A DNA stretch of 21,550 nt from positions 1 through 21,550 of IMG/VR virus record IMGVR_UViG_3300025301_000144. One strand, written 5' to 3'. The position numbers and the translations under genes are program-made. The DNA comes from a virus. A model generated the notes under the pieces. That model searched no databases and had not been told where the DNA came from. It saw only the letters and a list, made by a program, of their open reading frames with translations. Positions 217-13,414 of the stretch are shown here, in pieces; the first letter of the stretch is position 1; each line of letters begins with the position of its first letter.

Positions 217-1779
217 CTATGCAACTACCCAACTTTTAGCTGTAGGTCTGTGTTTATAAATATTACCCTTTTTATCTTGTTTAACAGATTGCAATGGATA
301 TGCATACTTACACGCATATGCTAAAGCATCTATTGTATCATCATGTCCCATTCTAGGACCAAAAGTATATATCTCTCTTTGTAAATCATACATCTCTTTC
401 TTTACAAATATCCCCCCTATTGAAAATCTTTGTGCTAATATTTCCTGTATCCTATCTCTCTTGCTCATTCTGTTTCCTGGCTTTTCAGCACAAAACTTAA
501 CAGTAAAATCATTTCTTCTTCTCATTTCAGCAGTCAATGCTTGAAATATTGGCCTACTCATTGTAGTGTCTTCTACAGTAAATAAACTGGGCCTAAATCT
601 ATTATTATAATCAAACATATAATCTACTATTCCCTTTTTATCATCTCCTGGGATACCAAGAACTGGCAGACTACGCATTCGTAAATACTCCAAAACATAG
701 ATATTATTATCAGCACAAACACCACACATAACAATAACAGAGAAATCACTATCCCTACGAGTACTATCGGTAGCAGGGTCAACCCCAGCAAAAATGTTGA
801 CTGGCTTAACATCTCCAGTATCCAAGACAACATACGAGATCTCAGTTTCTTCATCATATTTATATCTTCCCTCCCAATGCTTTACATGATCTCTTGTAAA
901 AATAGAATCAGTTTCACTTTGTACTTCCATCATATATTCCTGATAGAATTTCTGTGGCTGACCTGAATCAGAATAAAACTTTTTCTTTCTCTCCATTTCC
1001 TTTTGACCAAACCATGAAGGCCACAAAGGTGTACCATCATCCTGCAAAGCTTTATAAGTTACTACTTTCCAGCTAAATTCTTTATCCATCCCTTTGCTTT
1101 TAGCTTTATTATATCCAATAAGGATATTGTTAATAAAGGAATCAAAATGAACAGGAGTCCCATTGATACGAAGCCTACCAGTACCAGGTTCCAAAGCAGG
1201 AAATACAACAGCCGTAACAAGATTAGAGATTTTAGCACGAGACTCTGGTGTAACGGTATTATTTTCATCTTCAAAATCGTCCAGAACAATGAGGTCGTAC
1301 CGTTTATGTAATTTCGCTCCGCCTCTAATACCTGATAGGTTTGATTTACTAATGAGTTTACAGCCATTTTTAAGTTCGATATCATCTTCAGTCCATTTTT
1401 TCCCTTTTAAACTACCGAAATAATACGACACTTTATCATTATATTCCAAATGATATTTTATGTAATCTAAATTCGGTACACTAATCTTAGACGATGCAGC
1501 AACCCAACCGTAAAACAAAGGTTCCTTTGTAAATAAGAAATCTTGTAATATATTACATTTAGTTAAAACTGTCTTACCATGACCTCTAGGTAAAATAACA
1601 GCCATTTGTTTTACTTTTGTATCTGAAATCAAATCTGCTACTTCATAATGAAAAAATGGAGTTTCACTTCTCATAAAATCATCAGGCAGAAATAACTTAC
1701 CAAATGCAATCATATCATGTTTGGCAAGTTCTAATGTTTCTTCGGCCTTTGATACATTCTGTGTATTTATATTAGCCAT
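217..1779 (-). CDS. terL: Terminase large subunit (ATPase-nuclease DNA packaging motor)
   Basis: This protein powers DNA translocation into the prohead and cuts the concatemer. The ATPase domain is N-terminal: Walker A PRGHGKT with Lys69, and Walker B IVLDD with Asp167-Asp168. The C-terminal half has the RNase H-like nuclease signature: FAGVDPATDS with Asp334, VEDTTMS with Asp404, and the closing GHDDTIDA with Asp480-Asp481. At 520 residues it has a normal length for the family. Its ATG overlaps the stop of the upstream metallopeptidase gene (TAATG) and has no strong ribosome binding site of its own, so it is probably translationally coupled. It sits in the minus-strand late operon, three genes downstream of the small terminase. 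Confidence 0.96.
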   Translation of the reverse strand: MANINTQNVSKAEETLELAKHDMIAFGKLFLPDDFMRSETPFFHYEVADLISDTKVKQMAVILPRGHGKTVLTKCNILQDFLFTKEPLFYGWVAASSKISVPNLDYIKYHLEYNDKVSYYFGSLKGKKWTEDDIELKNGCKLISKSNLSGIRGGAKLHKRYDLIVLDDFEDENNTVTPESRAKISNLVTAVVFPALEPGTGRLRINGTPVHFDSFINNILIGYNKAKSKGMDKEFSWKVVTYKALQDDGTPLWPSWFGQKEMERKKKFYSDSGQPQKFYQEYMMEVQSETDSIFTRDHVKHWEGRYKYDEETEISYVVLDTGDVKPVNIFAGVDPATDSTRRDSDFSVIVMCGVCADNNIYVLEYLRMRSLPVLGIPGDDKKGIVDYMFDYNNRFRPSLFTVEDTTMSRPIFQALTAEMRRRNDFTVKFCAEKPGNRMSKRDRIQEILAQRFSIGGIFVKKEMYDLQREIYTFGPRMGHDDTIDALAYACKYAYPLQSVKQDKKGNIYKHRPTAKSWVVA

Positions 1780-3029
1780 TATTCGTTATACTCATCATAA
1801 ATTTCTTGTACTCTAGCTGTAGGTTCCCAAGGCAACTCTGGTCCATGCATAACATATCTACCAAAAAAATCTCTTGGGCCTAAAGGAATCCCAGATTCAG
1901 ATTGCCCATGAAATTCAGCTTCTTTTCTCAACTCGGCTTTTAAATCCTCAAATTCCAAAGGATAATCCAAGTTAAAATAGTCATCACTTAGCGCTGTATG
2001 TGCCTGAAGTGTTTTAGCATACGGGCTACCATACCATTTATCCATTTGTTCATGAATACTCCAATCTCCATATTCTTCTGGTAGTAATTGATTCATAATA
2101 AATTCGTAATCTTTTAATAACTCATTATCATATAAAAATCTATAAAATTCTACATATTCATCAGAAAACCTAGTTTCTTGTTGATTACCATACCAATCAG
2201 CCCAATCTCTTATTCTGTCTCCACTTACACCTTTTTCCCAATTACTGCCTTTAGACAATTCAAACAATTTACCATAAGCATCATGACTCTGGTCTTCTAG
2301 ACTAGACATATGAAGAGATCCAGTTCCGTGTCCAAATATCTCATGAGTAAGTATTTCAATAGGATCAGCAGCCCACCTATAGGTCTGGCTTGTGGAATCA
2401 GGAGTTGGTAAAGGTAAAGCAGCATACGCAGTATCAACAAGACTTCCCCCCAAACCATAACCGTACTGTCCTATTGATTTTCCAGCCCAGTTTTCTGTTC
2501 CTACTTCCCATTTGCCTGATCCTGCTTCAAATCCTGGAGGAACAGCTCTTATAAACATATTACCAGCTTGTAATTTTGGCAATAACACATCAGTAAAAGG
2601 AGTTTCTTTAAATTGTTCGTAATGTCTTGGATCAATTCCAATCTCTGATTTGATTCTGTCCAACTCCTTTCTGTTGGTCCGTCTTGCAAATAATTTTTCT
2701 TCTTCACTCCAACCAGCTTCTTCTTCTTCTATAGCCTTATCTATTGCGCCTTTTTCTGGCATAATCTGAGATAAAATTTTATCTAGTTCTGGGGCATGAA
2801 ATTCAAGTAATGCTGCTAATTGTCTAGATACAGATTCACTGGTTTTAGCCCATTCAGCAACCTCTTCCTCTGACATAGCAGATAATGATTCTGGTAAAGT
2901 TTTAAGAAAATCTAATTCTTCTGTGACATCTCCCTCAAATCCTTCAAAAGTTGGTATACGTCCTTCGCTACTAGCTCCAGAATATTTTAACCAATTCCAA
3001 TAATCTTGATATTCTTTACTTAACGGCAC
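1779..3029 (-). CDS. Putative HEXXGH (DPP III/M49-like) zinc metallopeptidase
   Basis: The 416-residue protein carries HEIFGHGTG at residues 229-235 onward. The three-residue spacing between Glu and the second His is not the common HEXXH. It is the HEXXGH form known from dipeptidyl peptidase III (family M49). About 45 residues later QQETRFSDE could supply the third zinc ligand, as the EECRAE motif does in M49. The N-terminal 110 residues are acidic and Glu-rich and may be disordered. The start is GTG, directly after the TAG of the upstream gene, with AGGA about nine bases before it. It lies between the terminase genes in the late operon, which suggests a role in head maturation, a virion-associated peptidase, or entry. 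The fold is inferred only from the motif. It could instead be an inactive structural relative. Confidence 0.55.
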   Translation of the reverse strand: MPLSKEYQDYWNWLKYSGASSEGRIPTFEGFEGDVTEELDFLKTLPESLSAMSEEEVAEWAKTSESVSRQLAALLEFHAPELDKILSQIMPEKGAIDKAIEEEEAGWSEEEKLFARRTNRKELDRIKSEIGIDPRHYEQFKETPFTDVLLPKLQAGNMFIRAVPPGFEAGSGKWEVGTENWAGKSIGQYGYGLGGSLVDTAYAALPLPTPDSTSQTYRWAADPIEILTHEIFGHGTGSLHMSSLEDQSHDAYGKLFELSKGSNWEKGVSGDRIRDWADWYGNQQETRFSDEYVEFYRFLYDNELLKDYEFIMNQLLPEEYGDWSIHEQMDKWYGSPYAKTLQAHTALSDDYFNLDYPLEFEDLKAELRKEAEFHGQSESGIPLGPRDFFGRYVMHGPELPWEPTARVQEIYDEYNE

Positions 3030-7799: not shown

Positions 7800-8051
7800 A
7801 TGCCTAGAGACGAAGCAATAACAATTAGAGAGTTTAATGGCTCATCATTTGAAGAGACAAGAACTCATGCATCAACAGTTGGTGAATATAGAGAAGAAAA
7901 AGGTCTTGGAGCTGATGTAACTATATCTGTTGATACTGTTAACCAACCTGATACCTTTGAATTAGAAGCAACTGATCCAGCAATGGCTGTAGCTGCTGTT
8001 CGTAGTAATAAAACTGGCGGTAGTGTTGATTTGCTTATAACAATCAAATAG
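7800..8051 (+). CDS. Putative ubiquitin-like (beta-grasp) protein modifier
   Basis: An 83-residue protein proposed to be the modifier that E1 activates and E2 transfers. The residue pattern resembles the ThiS/MoaD/ubiquitin beta-grasp: strands at 6-12 and 16-23, a helix at 26-36, strands at 39-47 and 52-56, then 'DPAMAVAAVRSNKTGG', like the 'DGDEV.IV...GG' end of ThiS. Gly73-Gly74 is followed by nine more residues (SVDLLITIK), which would need removal to expose the reactive glycine; the JAMM protein two genes on could do this. The ATG follows GAAAGGGG. Similarity is weak by eye and much of the assignment rests on the E1, E2 and JAMM neighbours. An alternative is a beta-strand protein whose last strand is that tail. 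Confidence 0.6.
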   Translation: MPRDEAITIREFNGSSFEETRTHASTVGEYREEKGLGADVTISVDTVNQPDTFELEATDPAMAVAAVRSNKTGGSVDLLITIK

Positions 8052-8070
8052 TTTGGTATCGAGGAGAGAC

Positions 8071-8122
8071 ATAGAGAGCCAATAACTGTAGCCAGCAATT
8101 GGTGTTATGTGAGGCTCTCTAT
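8071..8122 (+). other. Hairpin between modifier and E2-like genes
   Basis: ATAGAGAGCC (8071-8080) pairs perfectly with GGCTCTCTAT (8113-8122). The helix continues with ATAAC (8082-8086) and GTTAT (8104-8108), and a small CCA/TGG hairpin sits at the tip. It ends nine bases before the AAAGGAGG site of the E2-like gene and may set relative expression of modifier and E2 by RNA processing. Confidence 0.6.
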
Positions 8123-8145
8123 AAATTTAAAGAAAGGAGGACTAT

Positions 8146-9993
8146 ATGTCTGTAAATGTATTAACTCTTGATGGGTTAACAAATAGAAAATTAAAAACAA
8201 TAGCAGAAAATGTTATTATGGGTCCACAAGCTACTATATTATCACAATTAAATAATATTAATGGTAATCATAATTTAAGTCTAGGAGTGACTAAAACATT
8301 TAGATGGTCTCCTGGTATTTATGATCAAATAAAAGAGAGAATACATCATTATAATGGATTTAATATGAGTAATTCTGGTATGCGTCATTTGTTTAGAAGA
8401 ATCAAAGAAAATAATCGTTATTGGAAAAGAGATTTGGAATCTAAGGTAATAGAATTAGAAGGATCTTTACAAGGTTTAAGAGCTGCAGGTTCTATATGGC
8501 AAGATAATACTGATACAGTTTTTGATATTTTTACATTAATGAAAGAGCAAATACAAGAAACTTATGAATCTATTAATGATGATGTTCAAATTAGTTATGA
8601 TATATTAGAACAAGTAGATGAAGATAACAATATTGCACATAAAGGTTATAGAATAAGATTTATAATTGAATATAACAATATAGATGTTCATATGTGGTCT
8701 TCAACTAAAAGATATTTAGGAGAAGTTCCTACAGGAAGAATAACATTAAATATCCAAATGGATTTAGTTAAAGCATTAAATGTATTGTCATCAAAAAAGA
8801 ATATGTTATTTGACATTGAAACTTTGCCATCTTATTTTACTGGTGAAGGAAGAGCCTTTATAATGAAAGCTTTGTATAATAATGGTGTAGGAATACATCA
8901 TCCTTTTATAGGAAGTCGATTTGCGAGGCTTAATGATAGAATTGATCTTAATAATTTTTATTATCCAGCATATTGTTCGGAAACTGCAAATCAAGGGTGG
9001 CGCAATGTATGTGTAGGAGATATGGGAAGTGATATTGCTTTAAAATGTATAAATTTTAATTTAAATGAATTAAATACTAAATTAAAAGAATGGTTGTCTA
9101 ATTTTATAGTTACTCGTACTCATCCATTAAATCCTTTTAGTCGATGGTTTCATGGATGGCCTAAATGGTTAAAAGATAACAAGGAATTAGATGGTATTAT
9201 GGGACATATTCAAAATTCACGTACTTGTAATAATTCTTTATCTATTGTTGAGTATGCAGAATCAGCCAAACGTAGTGAAGATGAACTTGTTAAGCTTCTT
9301 CGTATGAATGATATACAATTTCGTATTGATTATTGTAATTCTGTTGAGTGTCAATTGAGAGATAATTGTATAACTTACAGTATACATGGTAATCCTGATT
9401 ATACTTATCAACAAGAACAATTGATGGTTGAGTTATCTGTTATACTATTTGCTCCATTAGAACTTGTTCATGAAGCATATTCTAATGAATCTGTTGATAA
9501 TTTACATTCAATTATTAAAGCTGAATCTACATGGGATAGAACAAAGCAAATAAAGCAAATAATAAAATTAGAATCTATATTGTATCCTGATAAGATTTTT
9601 GCAGACGAACTATCATATTTACACAAAACAAGTAAAGATTTATGGTCAGGGCGTGCACTAGAAGATTTAATATTCAGTCTTGAAGAGGCAGTATATAATA
9701 ATAAAGACAAAAAAGATGTTGTTAAAGAAAATAATGATAAATCTATGATTAAAACACTTCAAAATAGAATGGGTATGATTCCAACTATATCCCCTAATCC
9801 TAACGCTAATCAACCACAAGGTGATCGCGAACAAGATCATGTAGAATCAACTTTTTATTCATTAAATAGTGAAGAGTCCGCTGATTTTGAAATACTTTCA
9901 GATCCTGATGATGAAATGCATGATGAAGAATGGGAAGCATATCAAAGAGACATGGATGAAAATCCAGAACCAGATAACTTAGAGGAGGAATAA
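8146..9993 (+). CDS. Large protein with putative E2 (ubiquitin-conjugating-like) domain
   Basis: A 615-residue protein proposed to accept the modifier on a cysteine and pass it to a target. Near the middle it has His252-Pro253-Phe254-Ile255 and then WRNVCVGDMG with Cys289. This resembles the HPN(I)...G(N)(I/V)CL core of E2 enzymes and of bacterial E2-like proteins. The distance between the two (about 33 residues) exceeds that of a eukaryotic E2, implying a loop insertion. Strand-rich residues 165-220 could be the preceding sheet. The first 165 residues are helical; residues 340-520 are helical with Cys397-x4-Cys402-x5-Cys408, a possible metal site; the tail is acidic and disordered. AAAGGAGG precedes the ATG. 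Order (after Ubl, before JAMM and E1) supports the call. Nothing else I know has this whole architecture. Confidence 0.65.
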   Translation: MSVNVLTLDGLTNRKLKTIAENVIMGPQATILSQLNNINGNHNLSLGVTKTFRWSPGIYDQIKERIHHYNGFNMSNSGMRHLFRRIKENNRYWKRDLESKVIELEGSLQGLRAAGSIWQDNTDTVFDIFTLMKEQIQETYESINDDVQISYDILEQVDEDNNIAHKGYRIRFIIEYNNIDVHMWSSTKRYLGEVPTGRITLNIQMDLVKALNVLSSKKNMLFDIETLPSYFTGEGRAFIMKALYNNGVGIHHPFIGSRFARLNDRIDLNNFYYPAYCSETANQGWRNVCVGDMGSDIALKCINFNLNELNTKLKEWLSNFIVTRTHPLNPFSRWFHGWPKWLKDNKELDGIMGHIQNSRTCNNSLSIVEYAESAKRSEDELVKLLRMNDIQFRIDYCNSVECQLRDNCITYSIHGNPDYTYQQEQLMVELSVILFAPLELVHEAYSNESVDNLHSIIKAESTWDRTKQIKQIIKLESILYPDKIFADELSYLHKTSKDLWSGRALEDLIFSLEEAVYNNKDKKDVVKENNDKSMIKTLQNRMGMIPTISPNPNANQPQGDREQDHVESTFYSLNSEESADFEILSDPDDEMHDEEWEAYQRDMDENPEPDNLEEE

Positions 9994-9995
9994 AT

Positions 9996-10919
9996 ATGGA
10001 CGATGCAATATTCTCTATTAAAGAGAAAACATTTGACAAAATACTAAACTATGCACATTGTGCTAAAAATGAATTTAAGTCAGAAATTGGTGGAATGTGT
10101 GTAATATTAAAAGATAATGATGGGAATTATGAATTAATAGATCCAGTAATTTTAAAACAAACAATTAGTGGTGGAAATTGTGATTTAGATAAAGATGAAT
10201 TAGCTGTATATTATACTAAAGTTGATCAGAAATATAATAAATATGATTATACATTCTGTTGGTGGCATAGTCATCATACAATGGGAGCATTTTGGAGTAA
10301 AACTGATACAGATACTATGGAAGAAGCTTCTGATAGTAATATAAGTTATTCTTTAGTAGTCAGCTGGAATGAAGATCCATATGGACATATATTTAGAGTT
10401 TCATATTGGAAGCCAGTTGTATATGCAAAAGATATAAAACTTGAGATTATTCATAAGAGAGAAAAGAAAATTCCTAAATCTATTATGAAAGAAGTTGAAG
10501 AAAAATGTTCCAGCCCAATACCAACTAATTCTAAGTATGCAAATAATTTGATGCTTAAAAATCCTAATACAGGATATTCATATTATAGACGAGGATATCA
10601 AAGTAATTTATTTAATACTAATACTTATAATTTAGATCCCACTGCGACATATGGTGTAATACTTGATTTAGTTGATAAATTAATGAATAAATTAATTAAT
10701 GGTACATTAGTATATCATGATTATGTGGCTGAAATTGATGAAATTAATGAGCAATTAGGAGAAGATAATCCTATTTCCGTTACTAAAGAGGCTAAGGCTA
10801 CTATTGATAGGATATTAATTAATACTGCTAGTGATTATGTTGAGTATGATTTAACAAAAGATGATGATGAAATGGATGATATGGAAGCTATTAATACTAT
10901 AGAAGGGAATTGGCAATGA
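9996..10919 (+). CDS. JAMM/MPN metallopeptidase (deubiquitinase-like)
   Basis: A zinc isopeptidase or peptidase expected to trim the modifier and/or remove it from targets. The N-terminal 140 residues carry the complete JAMM motif: Glu30 (in SEIGGM), then His91-Ser-His93, seven residues, Ser101-x2-Asp104. Residues 150-307 form a C-terminal extension of unknown fold, including a Tyr/Arg-rich patch (GYSYYRRGYQ) and an acidic last 25 residues, perhaps for binding the modifier or E2. The start follows AGGAGGAA and lies two bases after the E2-like stop. Its stop overlaps the E1 start. JAMM domains also occur in phage tail proteins, but those pair with an NlpC domain, absent here. Confidence 0.93.
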   Translation: MDDAIFSIKEKTFDKILNYAHCAKNEFKSEIGGMCVILKDNDGNYELIDPVILKQTISGGNCDLDKDELAVYYTKVDQKYNKYDYTFCWWHSHHTMGAFWSKTDTDTMEEASDSNISYSLVVSWNEDPYGHIFRVSYWKPVVYAKDIKLEIIHKREKKIPKSIMKEVEEKCSSPIPTNSKYANNLMLKNPNTGYSYYRRGYQSNLFNTNTYNLDPTATYGVILDLVDKLMNKLINGTLVYHDYVAEIDEINEQLGEDNPISVTKEAKATIDRILINTASDYVEYDLTKDDDEMDDMEAINTIEGNWQ

Positions 10920-11587
10920 TAATAACTAGATTTAAAGATATAGTAGATAGTATGCATAAATATACATTTCATATACTTGGTTGCGGAGCCATTGGGAGCT
11001 CCGTAGCCACTCAATTAGCTAGAAGTGGAGCTGAAAAGTTTGTATTATATGATATGGATAAAGTAGATGTAGAAAATATAGGGGTATCTCAATATCTTGA
11101 AGAAGATATAGGTAAAGATAAAGTATATGCATTAGCCGAGCAATTAAAATCTATTAATTTATCTACAAATATAACAACATGTTATGGGGAGTTTAGCTAT
11201 GATTTATGGAGTCCTGATCTTCAAAAGAAAGATATAGTTATATTAGGATTTGATTCAATGTCTGCAAGGTTAGAAGCTGTAAGAATAGTATGTAATGATG
11301 CAAGCTTTAAACCTCTATTTATAATAGATGGTAGAATGGGAGCTGAACATTATCAACAATATACAATAAAGAACCCAACAGTTAGAGAATATAAAGGCAC
11401 TTGGTATAGTGATGAAGAAGGTTCTACAGAGCCTTGCAATGCTAAAGCTACCAGTTATTGTTCTAATATGAGTGGAAGTTTTATAGTTAACACTATAAGA
11501 AAATTGATTACTAATCAACCATATCATAAAAAATTGAACTTTCATTTTCCAACCATGAATTTGGATAAAAGTAAAATGATAGTTTAA
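10916..11587 (+). CDS. ThiF/E1-like modifier-activating enzyme
   Basis: An adenylating enzyme expected to use ATP to activate the modifier's C-terminal glycine. The Rossmann site is GCGAIG (Gly22-Gly27), followed by Asp46-x-Asp48...Asn54 and Gln59, Lys69 after DIGKD, and Asp113 with Arg118 (GFDSMSAR). Cys174 in 'EPCNAKATSYC' is the best candidate for a thioester cysteine. The arginine of the usual NLxRQ element is replaced (GVSQ). No CxxC zinc pairs and no C-terminal ubiquitin-fold domain are present, so it is a minimal form of 223 residues. The ATG at 10916 is preferred to TTG at 10910 because it forms an ATGA overlap with the JAMM gene and AGAAGGGA is well spaced. Confidence 0.92.
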   Translation: MIITRFKDIVDSMHKYTFHILGCGAIGSSVATQLARSGAEKFVLYDMDKVDVENIGVSQYLEEDIGKDKVYALAEQLKSINLSTNITTCYGEFSYDLWSPDLQKKDIVILGFDSMSARLEAVRIVCNDASFKPLFIIDGRMGAEHYQQYTIKNPTVREYKGTWYSDEEGSTEPCNAKATSYCSNMSGSFIVNTIRKLITNQPYHKKLNFHFPTMNLDKSKMIV

Positions 11588-12120: not shown

Positions 12121-12885
12121 ATGAAAACTTTATATTTTGATTTAGAGCATGGAAGTAAAACTTTAGGTTCTAAAGATGCAATAAAGACAATGTTTGGCTA
12201 TCCTGTATTACATCCTTATACTTGGGATCAATTTCTCAAGATTATAGGTGGTATATACAAACAAGACAAAGTAGTAGTCACGCAAAAAATAGGAGACTTA
12301 GAAGTATCTCATGAAGATCAACAAGTCACCTTAAAAAATGGTACTATAGTTGACGCATTAGTAGTTGACACAGTATCAGAACTCTGTAAAAAATACCAAA
12401 GAAGTTTATGTGATAAAAATGGTGTCATGAAGCTTCAAGATTGGGGGAGGCTGAAAAACAAAATCGATACAGCCTTAGAGTTTATAACTAGGATACCAGG
12501 TATAGTTATCTGTACCTCTCATTCAAAAATGAGCACAATGGACGATGGAACAACTAAAATACAACCATATATAGATGGATCTAGTAAAGAAGACTTATCT
12601 AAATGGTTTGATTTTGTGTTCTACTCAAAAACTATTATCAATCCTAGTGGAAAGAGGGAATATATTTGGGTAACTGAAAGAAGTGAAATGTACAACGATG
12701 CTAAAGATCGAACAGGACTTCTAGATGCTCAAATACCTCAAGACTATCAATTGGTAATTGATGCTGCTAACAATAAAGGATTTGAAGGTGCTAAAATACT
12801 TATCATCGGATCTCCTGGTAGTGGTAAAACATATAGTCTACAAACTCTAAATAAGGAGGTGTCGAATGCGAACACTAACGATTAA
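12121..12885 (+). CDS. Sak4/AAA_24-type RecA-fold ATPase, apparently circularly permuted
   Basis: This 254-residue protein resembles phage nucleotide-binding ATPases of the Sak4/AAA_24 type, which work with phage SSB proteins in recombination. In those proteins Walker A is N-terminal. Here the protein starts with the segment that normally follows Walker A (TLYFDLEHGSKTLG), continues with Walker B (DALVVDTVSEL, Asp83), 'LQDWGRL', and the usual C-terminal 'IPQDYQLVIDAANNKGF', and only then has Walker A, GSPGSGKT (Gly230-Thr237), 17 residues before the end. The start is firm: GGAGGG precedes the ATG and an in-frame stop lies at 12109-12111. The end overlaps the SSB-like gene. Sequence order is plain; the permutation interpretation rests on recalled family order. 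Confidence 0.8.
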   Translation: MKTLYFDLEHGSKTLGSKDAIKTMFGYPVLHPYTWDQFLKIIGGIYKQDKVVVTQKIGDLEVSHEDQQVTLKNGTIVDALVVDTVSELCKKYQRSLCDKNGVMKLQDWGRLKNKIDTALEFITRIPGIVICTSHSKMSTMDDGTTKIQPYIDGSSKEDLSKWFDFVFYSKTIINPSGKREYIWVTERSEMYNDAKDRTGLLDAQIPQDYQLVIDAANNKGFEGAKILIIGSPGSGKTYSLQTLNKEVSNANTND

Positions 12886-13414
12886 AAAGAATAGTGGATC
12901 TAAATTTTCTCCAGGTTGGAAACAAGTGGAGATAATTAAAGCAGTATATGGGGACTATAATGGTACCAAATACGTAGATTGCTATTTCAAGGATTATCCT
13001 GACTCACTTAACCTAAGAATCTATGCTAAAGAGGGCGCAAATGGAGAGGAATTTGCTATAGGCAGATTATTCCGATTTGCAAATGCTGGCATAACTGAAG
13101 TGCTTAATGGTGCTAATGGTGAAAGTGTAGTTAAGATAGATGATAGTCCTGCTAGTTTAATTGGTAAACATATCAATGTATACTTTTACAAAGATGGAGA
13201 ATACAGTAGAATATTATCTTCTGTAGCTCCAACTGAGTTTAAGAATGAGATTGAAGAGTTTTCAGATGATGATATTAGTTACTGGAAACAACAATCTGAA
13301 AAATATTACAAGAAATATGTCGTTAAAGACGAAGAAGATAGTGGAGAAGCAACATTTCCATTTACATCTAATACTGAGAATACTAGCGACGATAGTGATG
13401 GATTACCAATCTAA
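12866..13414 (+). CDS. Putative single-stranded DNA-binding protein
   Basis: A 182-residue protein with a strand-rich N-terminal 130 residues and an acidic, Ser-rich tail ending DDSDGLPI, close to the acidic-hydrophobic tip by which bacterial SSB recruits partners. Phage SSB-like proteins commonly sit beside Sak4-type ATPases, as here. An AAGGAGG site lies inside the ATPase gene, and the two genes overlap by 20 bases. The OB fold is inferred from pattern and context only; I do not recognise a specific family. Confidence 0.6.
   Translation: MRTLTIKKNSGSKFSPGWKQVEIIKAVYGDYNGTKYVDCYFKDYPDSLNLRIYAKEGANGEEFAIGRLFRFANAGITEVLNGANGESVVKIDDSPASLIGKHINVYFYKDGEYSRILSSVAPTEFKNEIEEFSDDDISYWKQQSEKYYKKYVVKDEEDSGEATFPFTSNTENTSDDSDGLPI

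Follow-up and report, generated by a model that had tools for sequence, protein, structure and literature searches.

The window analysed here is the whole stretch of 21,550 bases at positions 1 to 21,550 of a virus contig, the IMG/VR record IMGVR_UViG_3300025301_000144. Between positions 7800 and 11587 it carries a cassette of four genes in the order ubiquitin-like modifier (Ubl), E2-like protein, JAMM protease and E1, and these four adjacent ORFs lie on the plus strand exactly where a first-pass annotation of the DNA had placed them. The features of the cassette are as follows:

7800 to 8051, plus strand: Ubl, 83-aa predicted beta-grasp modifier precursor
8071 to 8122, plus strand: stem-loop in the gap between the Ubl and E2-like genes, with perfect 10-bp arms ATAGAGAGCC / GGCTCTCTAT
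8146 to 9993, plus strand: E2-like protein, 615 aa, with an HP...C motif and a four-Cys cluster
9996 to 10919, plus strand: JAMM/Prok-JAB isopeptidase, 307 aa, with E30, H91, H93, S101 and D104
10916 to 11587, plus strand: E1/ThiF adenylyltransferase of one domain, 223 aa if started at ATG 10916

The gap between the Ubl and E2-like genes is 94 nt and that between the E2-like and JAMM genes 2 nt, while the JAMM and E1 genes overlap. Strong AGGAGG-type ribosome sites were found for the E2-like and JAMM genes. For the E1 gene, ATG 10916, which forms an ATGA overlap with the stop codon of the JAMM gene, is a more likely start than TTG 10910; depending on this choice the protein has 223 to 225 aa, with one ThiF domain. 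The stem-loop in the Ubl-E2 gap has an RNA fold z of -2.35, and the same gap also contains stem-loops, of other sequences, in L019 (3110-3255, z -3.85) and L020 (2909-3014, z -3.37). This element may set the ratio of the Ubl to the other proteins. An endolysin gene and terminase subunits are encoded on the opposite strand of the contig, and Sak4-like, primase-helicase and RusA-like genes lie 3' of the cassette.

Two other genes of the window deserve mention in their own right. The Sak4-like RecA-fold ATPase (12121-12885, plus strand) is a natural circular permutant, in which Walker A (GSPGSGKT) is near the C-terminus and the N-terminus is the strand that normally comes after Walker A. The permuted form was likewise found in L019, L020, L041, L061, L066, L070, L080, L082, L085 and L094. 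When permuted proteins were aligned with four ordinary Sak4 proteins, three from the phage's relatives and one crAss-like, the rotated alignment was better in 16/16 comparisons, the cut usually falling directly before DCLIIDTE. On the minus strand, positions 1779-3029 encode a 416-aa protein without a PHROG match that contains HEIFGHG, a motif we take to resemble HELLGH, the zinc motif seen in dipeptidyl peptidases of family M49.

DNA similarity searches and single-protein scans returned the same virus and nothing further. A tblastn search with E1 retrieved crAss-like phages of the Steigviridae, phages of Flavobacterium psychrophilum and a few records without classification. Scanning IMG/VR with an alignment of these E1s yielded 411 viral contigs that carry a related E1 gene; the best 80 were kept, most of them with 55-64% E1 identity. 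Among these best 80 of 411, profiles detected Ubl, E2-like, JAMM and E1 in that order and on one strand in every one of the 40 loci that extend 4.5 kb or more upstream of E1, a set that was chosen by E1 and includes near-duplicate contigs. To remove the selection by E1, we fetched loci anchored on the primase-helicase. Thirteen of them had at least 9.2 kb upstream, and all four genes were present in 10 (two of which are the window's own virus), none in 3 and a subset in 0. Nine full records of cassette-less phages (the largest of 52,245 bases; possibly fragments) gave no E1 or JAMM match anywhere, and the cassette-less relatives have a primase-helicase about 58-60% identical. This all-four-or-none pattern among phages that share the primase indicates that the four genes are gained or lost together and that related phages manage without them. 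In two cassette-less phages, L176 (6008-7162) and L162 (6454-7470), a related ORF of 340-385 aa was seen near the expected position of the cassette.

The JAMM protein matched Pfam Prok-JAB with an E-value of 2.8e-5, slightly below the curated cut-off, and its nearest profile was that of the Caldiarchaeum Rpn11 homologue (2.4e-5). Its zinc site, E...HxH-x7-S-x2-D, consists of Glu30, His91, His93, Ser101 and Asp104, exactly the residues claimed in the first-pass annotation, and these ligands are kept in 36/36 relatives. The last protein of the cassette is an E1, as had also been claimed: it has a GxGxxG adenylation domain matching Pfam ThiF (1.6e-22), and its best PDB match in a profile search was UBA5 (2.2e-13). 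In NCBIfam, the ThiS adenylyltransferase ThiF scored highest (7e-24), under the cut-off. Cys176, numbered from TTG 10910, is conserved in 80/80 of the best 80 of 411 contigs and is the putative catalytic cysteine.

The window Ubl had no credible match in Pfam, NCBIfam or PHROG, and 12 of 30 members of its family matched Pfam ThiS (best 1.9e-5). An AlphaFold2 model based on 30 Ubls (pLDDT 80.9) showed a strand-strand-helix-strand-strand order and disorder from residue 73, and with Foldseek the best PDB matches of this model were Mth1743, Caldiarchaeum ubiquitin and SUMO (E about 0.01, probability about 1). As modelled, the small protein has the ubiquitin/ThiS fold, so that its earlier description as beta-grasp-like withstood the fold check. 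The motif Lys-x-Gly-Gly is kept in 46/46 distinct Ubls. Twelve of the 46 terminate at Gly-Gly and most of the remaining ones carry 1-11 more residues; L045 has 2 residues beyond Gly-Gly and a separate N-terminal KKGG. The Gly73-Gly74 pair noted on first reading is indeed present in the window Ubl, but it does not form the C-terminal end here, since it is followed by a nine-residue tail, SVDLLITIK. The predicted mature end is Gly74, and the tail implies that trimming is required. The JAMM gene is kept in all 12 cases in which the Ubl already ends at Gly-Gly, so precursor trimming cannot be the sole need for JAMM there; judging from these sequences, JAMM probably removes the tag in addition to trimming the precursor. 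An alignment with crAss-like Ubls that made Gly73-Gly74 internal and SVDLLITIK the last strand was overturned by close relatives and by the AlphaFold2 model.

The large protein carries the motif H252-P-F-I ... N-V-C289-V-G-D-M, previously pointed out as an HPFI...NVCVGDM signature, which is its predicted active site. Cys289 is conserved in 44/44 sequences, as is Cys361, and in the HP motif P253 is present in 42/44 and H252 in 30/44, with Phe instead in 13. Conservation of Cys289 and of Gly-Gly in homologues, which the first-pass annotation had set as a check, thus holds. The spacing from HP to Cys in short members is about 14-17 residues, for example HPYVSRGGYGTGNVC in L070. The C-terminal half contains a four-Cys cluster (C361, C397, C402, C408), of which C397, C402 and C408 are found in 42-43/44 sequences; it is a possible zinc or Fe-S site. 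No credible match was obtained for this protein in Pfam, NCBIfam or PHROG, and tblastn found nothing. In the AlphaFold2 model built from 44 sequences (pLDDT 74.2), a helix, strands, the HP loop (260-282, low confidence), Cys289 and two helices follow one another, an order that would be compatible with a UBC fold. Foldseek gave nothing significant for this model against the PDB (Ubc9 at rank 8, E 2.0), and the alignment of its profile with four eukaryotic E2 sequences was weak (P about 0.02), with HP and Cys in register. Among predicted viral structures, the model matched a viral family without a name (E to 4e-27), A0A1B0WLX5 (1.2e-3), whose 420 residues equal the length of the E2-like ORF of Flavobacterium phage Fpv1, and a crAss-like cr128_1 protein (2.6e-3, probability 0.85). 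The putative E2 assignment thus derives from the motif, the invariance of the Cys and the company of the genes. Taken with the Ubl fold, the conservation of the gene set and of its residues gives good support to the claim that the cassette is complete and phage-encoded.

Genes for a Ubl-like protein, an E2-like protein, JAMM and ThiF follow one another in this order in crAss001 (gp79-gp78-gp77-gp76) and in Fpv1 as well. The E1 proteins of Steigviridae crAss-like phages and Fpv1 are 27-34% identical to those of the marine family to which the window belongs, and the crAss-like and marine JAMM profiles are homologous (probability 97.8, E 8e-13). The Ubls of the crAss-like phages and Fpv1 have an N-terminal Ubl-like part and share K-x-K-S-G(G/A) ahead of an extension, but differ by a large C-terminal domain. 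Their E2-like proteins differ too, with YMHSH...C.G in place of the marine motif and without the four-Cys cluster. Neither the E2 nor the Ubl profiles of the marine and crAss-like groups matched each other significantly, and the models suggest a weak structural resemblance between the two kinds of E2-like protein. In the E1 tree, marine, crAss-like and Fpv1 sequences group to the exclusion of plasmid E1s; this grouping is weakly supported (84/52), branches are long, and the bacterial plasmid E1s are too divergent for safe rooting. When the genomes of 84,980 species were scanned with the alignment of E1s, two contigs only were returned. They were labelled Clostridium and Spirochaetia, but we rejected these labels as hosts since both contigs are crAss-like phage by gene content. 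A search of the genomes so labelled for PRTRC_B carries no weight because no control genome matched.

Iyer et al. (2006; PMC1779556) described sets of E1, E2, JAB and Ubl genes in bacteria; the example from phages in that study was the Ubl of lambda/T1 tail assembly, which occurs with JAB. Their operon type 6d also has a Ubl, a JAB and separate E1 and E2-like genes, but additionally an alpha-helical protein, a JAB-N domain and an E2 with a conserved downstream His, none of which was recognised in the window cassette. The cellular archaeal operon of Caldiarchaeum subterraneum (Ub/E1/E2/Rpn11) provides some of the best profile and structural neighbours of the cassette, its Rpn11 homologue and its ubiquitin, but it includes an E3, and no sequence relation to the E2-like protein was found. 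We rejected a PRTRC assignment on scores (ThiF 29.1 bits against a cut-off of 144.75, PRTRC_A 13.5 against 101.8), and neither the Ubl nor the E2-like protein had a PRTRC match in NCBIfam. The Bil system (BilABCD) likewise consists of a Ubl, an E1, an E2 and a JAMM-type protease, but its E1 pairs an inactive and an active adenylation domain (PMC11354881), in contrast to the single 223-aa domain of the window E1, which accompanies a Ubl of a single beta-grasp. In type II CBASS, Cap2 and Cap3 provide E1 and E2 chemistry and a JAB protease (PMC10097602); the window cassette differs in having E1 and E2 as separate proteins and a true small Ubl. Scans of the neighbouring genes recognised neither a CD-NTase nor an effector, and PADLOC reported partial E1-E2 and JAB domain matches only. 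Given these observations and the single-domain E1, membership in CBASS or Bil was rejected. The view of the first-pass annotation that the cassette is not CBASS is well supported. The gene order, which that annotation had counted as distinctive, is not unusual among phages, as crAss-like phages and Fpv1 have it too.

CBASS has defence roles, and sets of the Ubl-E1-E2-JAMM type protect bacteria (PMC10097602, PMC11153139). A phage could accordingly carry such a Bil- or CBASS-like system to exclude competing phages during infection, and its gain and loss as a unit would fit. We consider this improbable given the lack of a recognised CD-NTase or effector in the genes scanned and the partial PADLOC matches. 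In addition, the cassette adjoins replication genes in the window family, is common to distinct phage lineages, and was met in the species genomes only on the two crAss-like phage contigs.

Our favoured interpretation, which we regard as reasonably probable, is that the four genes form a co-inherited, phage-encoded module for Ubl conjugation and deconjugation that is transferable and reversible. We infer the E2 role, the covalent tagging and the order of the steps as follows. JAMM would trim the tail after Gly73-Gly74, and E1 would adenylate Gly74 and then hold it in thioester linkage, probably at Cys176. Next, the Ubl would be transferred to the E2-like protein at Cys289 and then be joined to lysines of target proteins, from which JAMM would take the tag off again. 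The C-terminal Cys cluster of the E2-like protein may serve as a built-in substrate-binding (E3-like) part.

Sulfur-carrier pathways, too, combine an E1, a ThiS-like Ubl and a JAMM protein. The main rival reading is thus a ThiS/QbsE-like Ubl on which E1 makes a thiocarboxylate after JAMM has exposed Gly-Gly, with the large protein as a sulfurtransferase and a small molecule or nucleic acid as the thiolated product. By Pfam the Ubl is nearest to ThiS, the best NCBIfam match of E1 is the ThiF family mentioned above, and a metal or an Fe-S centre could be bound by the Cys cluster. We nonetheless find this reading improbable: scans of the window genes recognised no rhodanese, no desulfurase and no thiamine or cysteine gene, the E2-like partner with its invariant Cys after the HP motif is always present, and JAMM is retained where Gly-Gly is already terminal.

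As for the targets of the proposed conjugation, evolutionary rates offer some indication. Between the window and L019, dN/dS was 0.55 for E2, 0.39 for JAMM, 0.22 for the Ubl and 0.20 for E1, compared with 0.14 for SSB (window 12866-13414, named from position alone) and 0.07 for Sak4 and the primase, all from a single genome pair and a single method. Family-wide, the median identity to the window was lowest for E2 (0.26), with 0.58 for E1. The expected substrate chooser is thus the fastest-changing protein, as expected if targets differ among hosts. The first-pass annotation had proposed that the pathway might counter defence or mark virion parts. The all-or-none presence of the cassette and the fast evolution of E2 speak more for a target that varies with the host than for a core role in the virion. 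Our guess, offered tentatively, is that the targets are proteins that differ between hosts, either host or defence proteins tagged early in infection, and not a fixed part of the virion. The fuller proposal is somewhat doubtful, namely that this is a widespread phage system, carried all-or-none, in which host or defence proteins are tagged during early infection by a fast-evolving E2 family that has no sequence kinship to known E2s and is fused to a metal-binding, E3-like part. The same conjugation chemistry would be compatible with a SUMO-like tagging of the phage's own replication proteins (the replisome), considering that in the window family the cassette lies beside the genes for Sak4 and the primase-helicase and the gene in the SSB position, and that crAss-like cassettes are near primase and UDG genes. 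This target appears unlikely, however, because the cassette-less relatives with a similar primase-helicase imply that replication does not need the cassette.

Most Ubl tagging sets known earlier came from bacteria, where they often serve as defences against viruses, and work on bacterial ubiquitin-like conjugation has centred on this host defence. Here, the carriers are a marine virus of bacteria and hundreds of its uncultured relatives, and if the conjugation reading is true, bacterial viruses have a protein-tagging pathway of their own, both in uncultured marine phages and in crAss-like and Flavobacterium phages that are in culture. On the fuller proposal above, phages would turn ubiquitin-like tagging on bacteria, the reverse of Bil and CBASS. 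We found no paper on this cassette in phages and no relevant one on crAss-like phages and ubiquitin in the open-access literature, to which our search was confined (subscription journals and preprints lay outside it), and the main text of the crAss-like genome survey of Yutin et al. (2021) has no mention of JAB, ThiF or ubiquitin. Both crAss001 and Fpv1 are available in culture, so that the proposed tag, the proteins it marks and its consequences for infection are testable now.

Two further observations concern individual phage records. In Fpv1 (L011, 4668-6960), a group I intron (Rfam RF00028, E 2.3e-9, slightly below the gathering score) interrupts the JAMM gene directly before the catalytic HSH codons; a LAGLIDADG-like ORF accompanies it on the other strand. 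A phage scaffold from the human gut, itself unverified (L013, 3146-6636), encodes a small protein, a 491-aa protein containing PHIDDYQCFRG, a JAMM-like protein (GHSHVNMATNPSGVD) and finally an E1, arranged as in the window cassette and followed by a reverse-transcriptase-like ORF.
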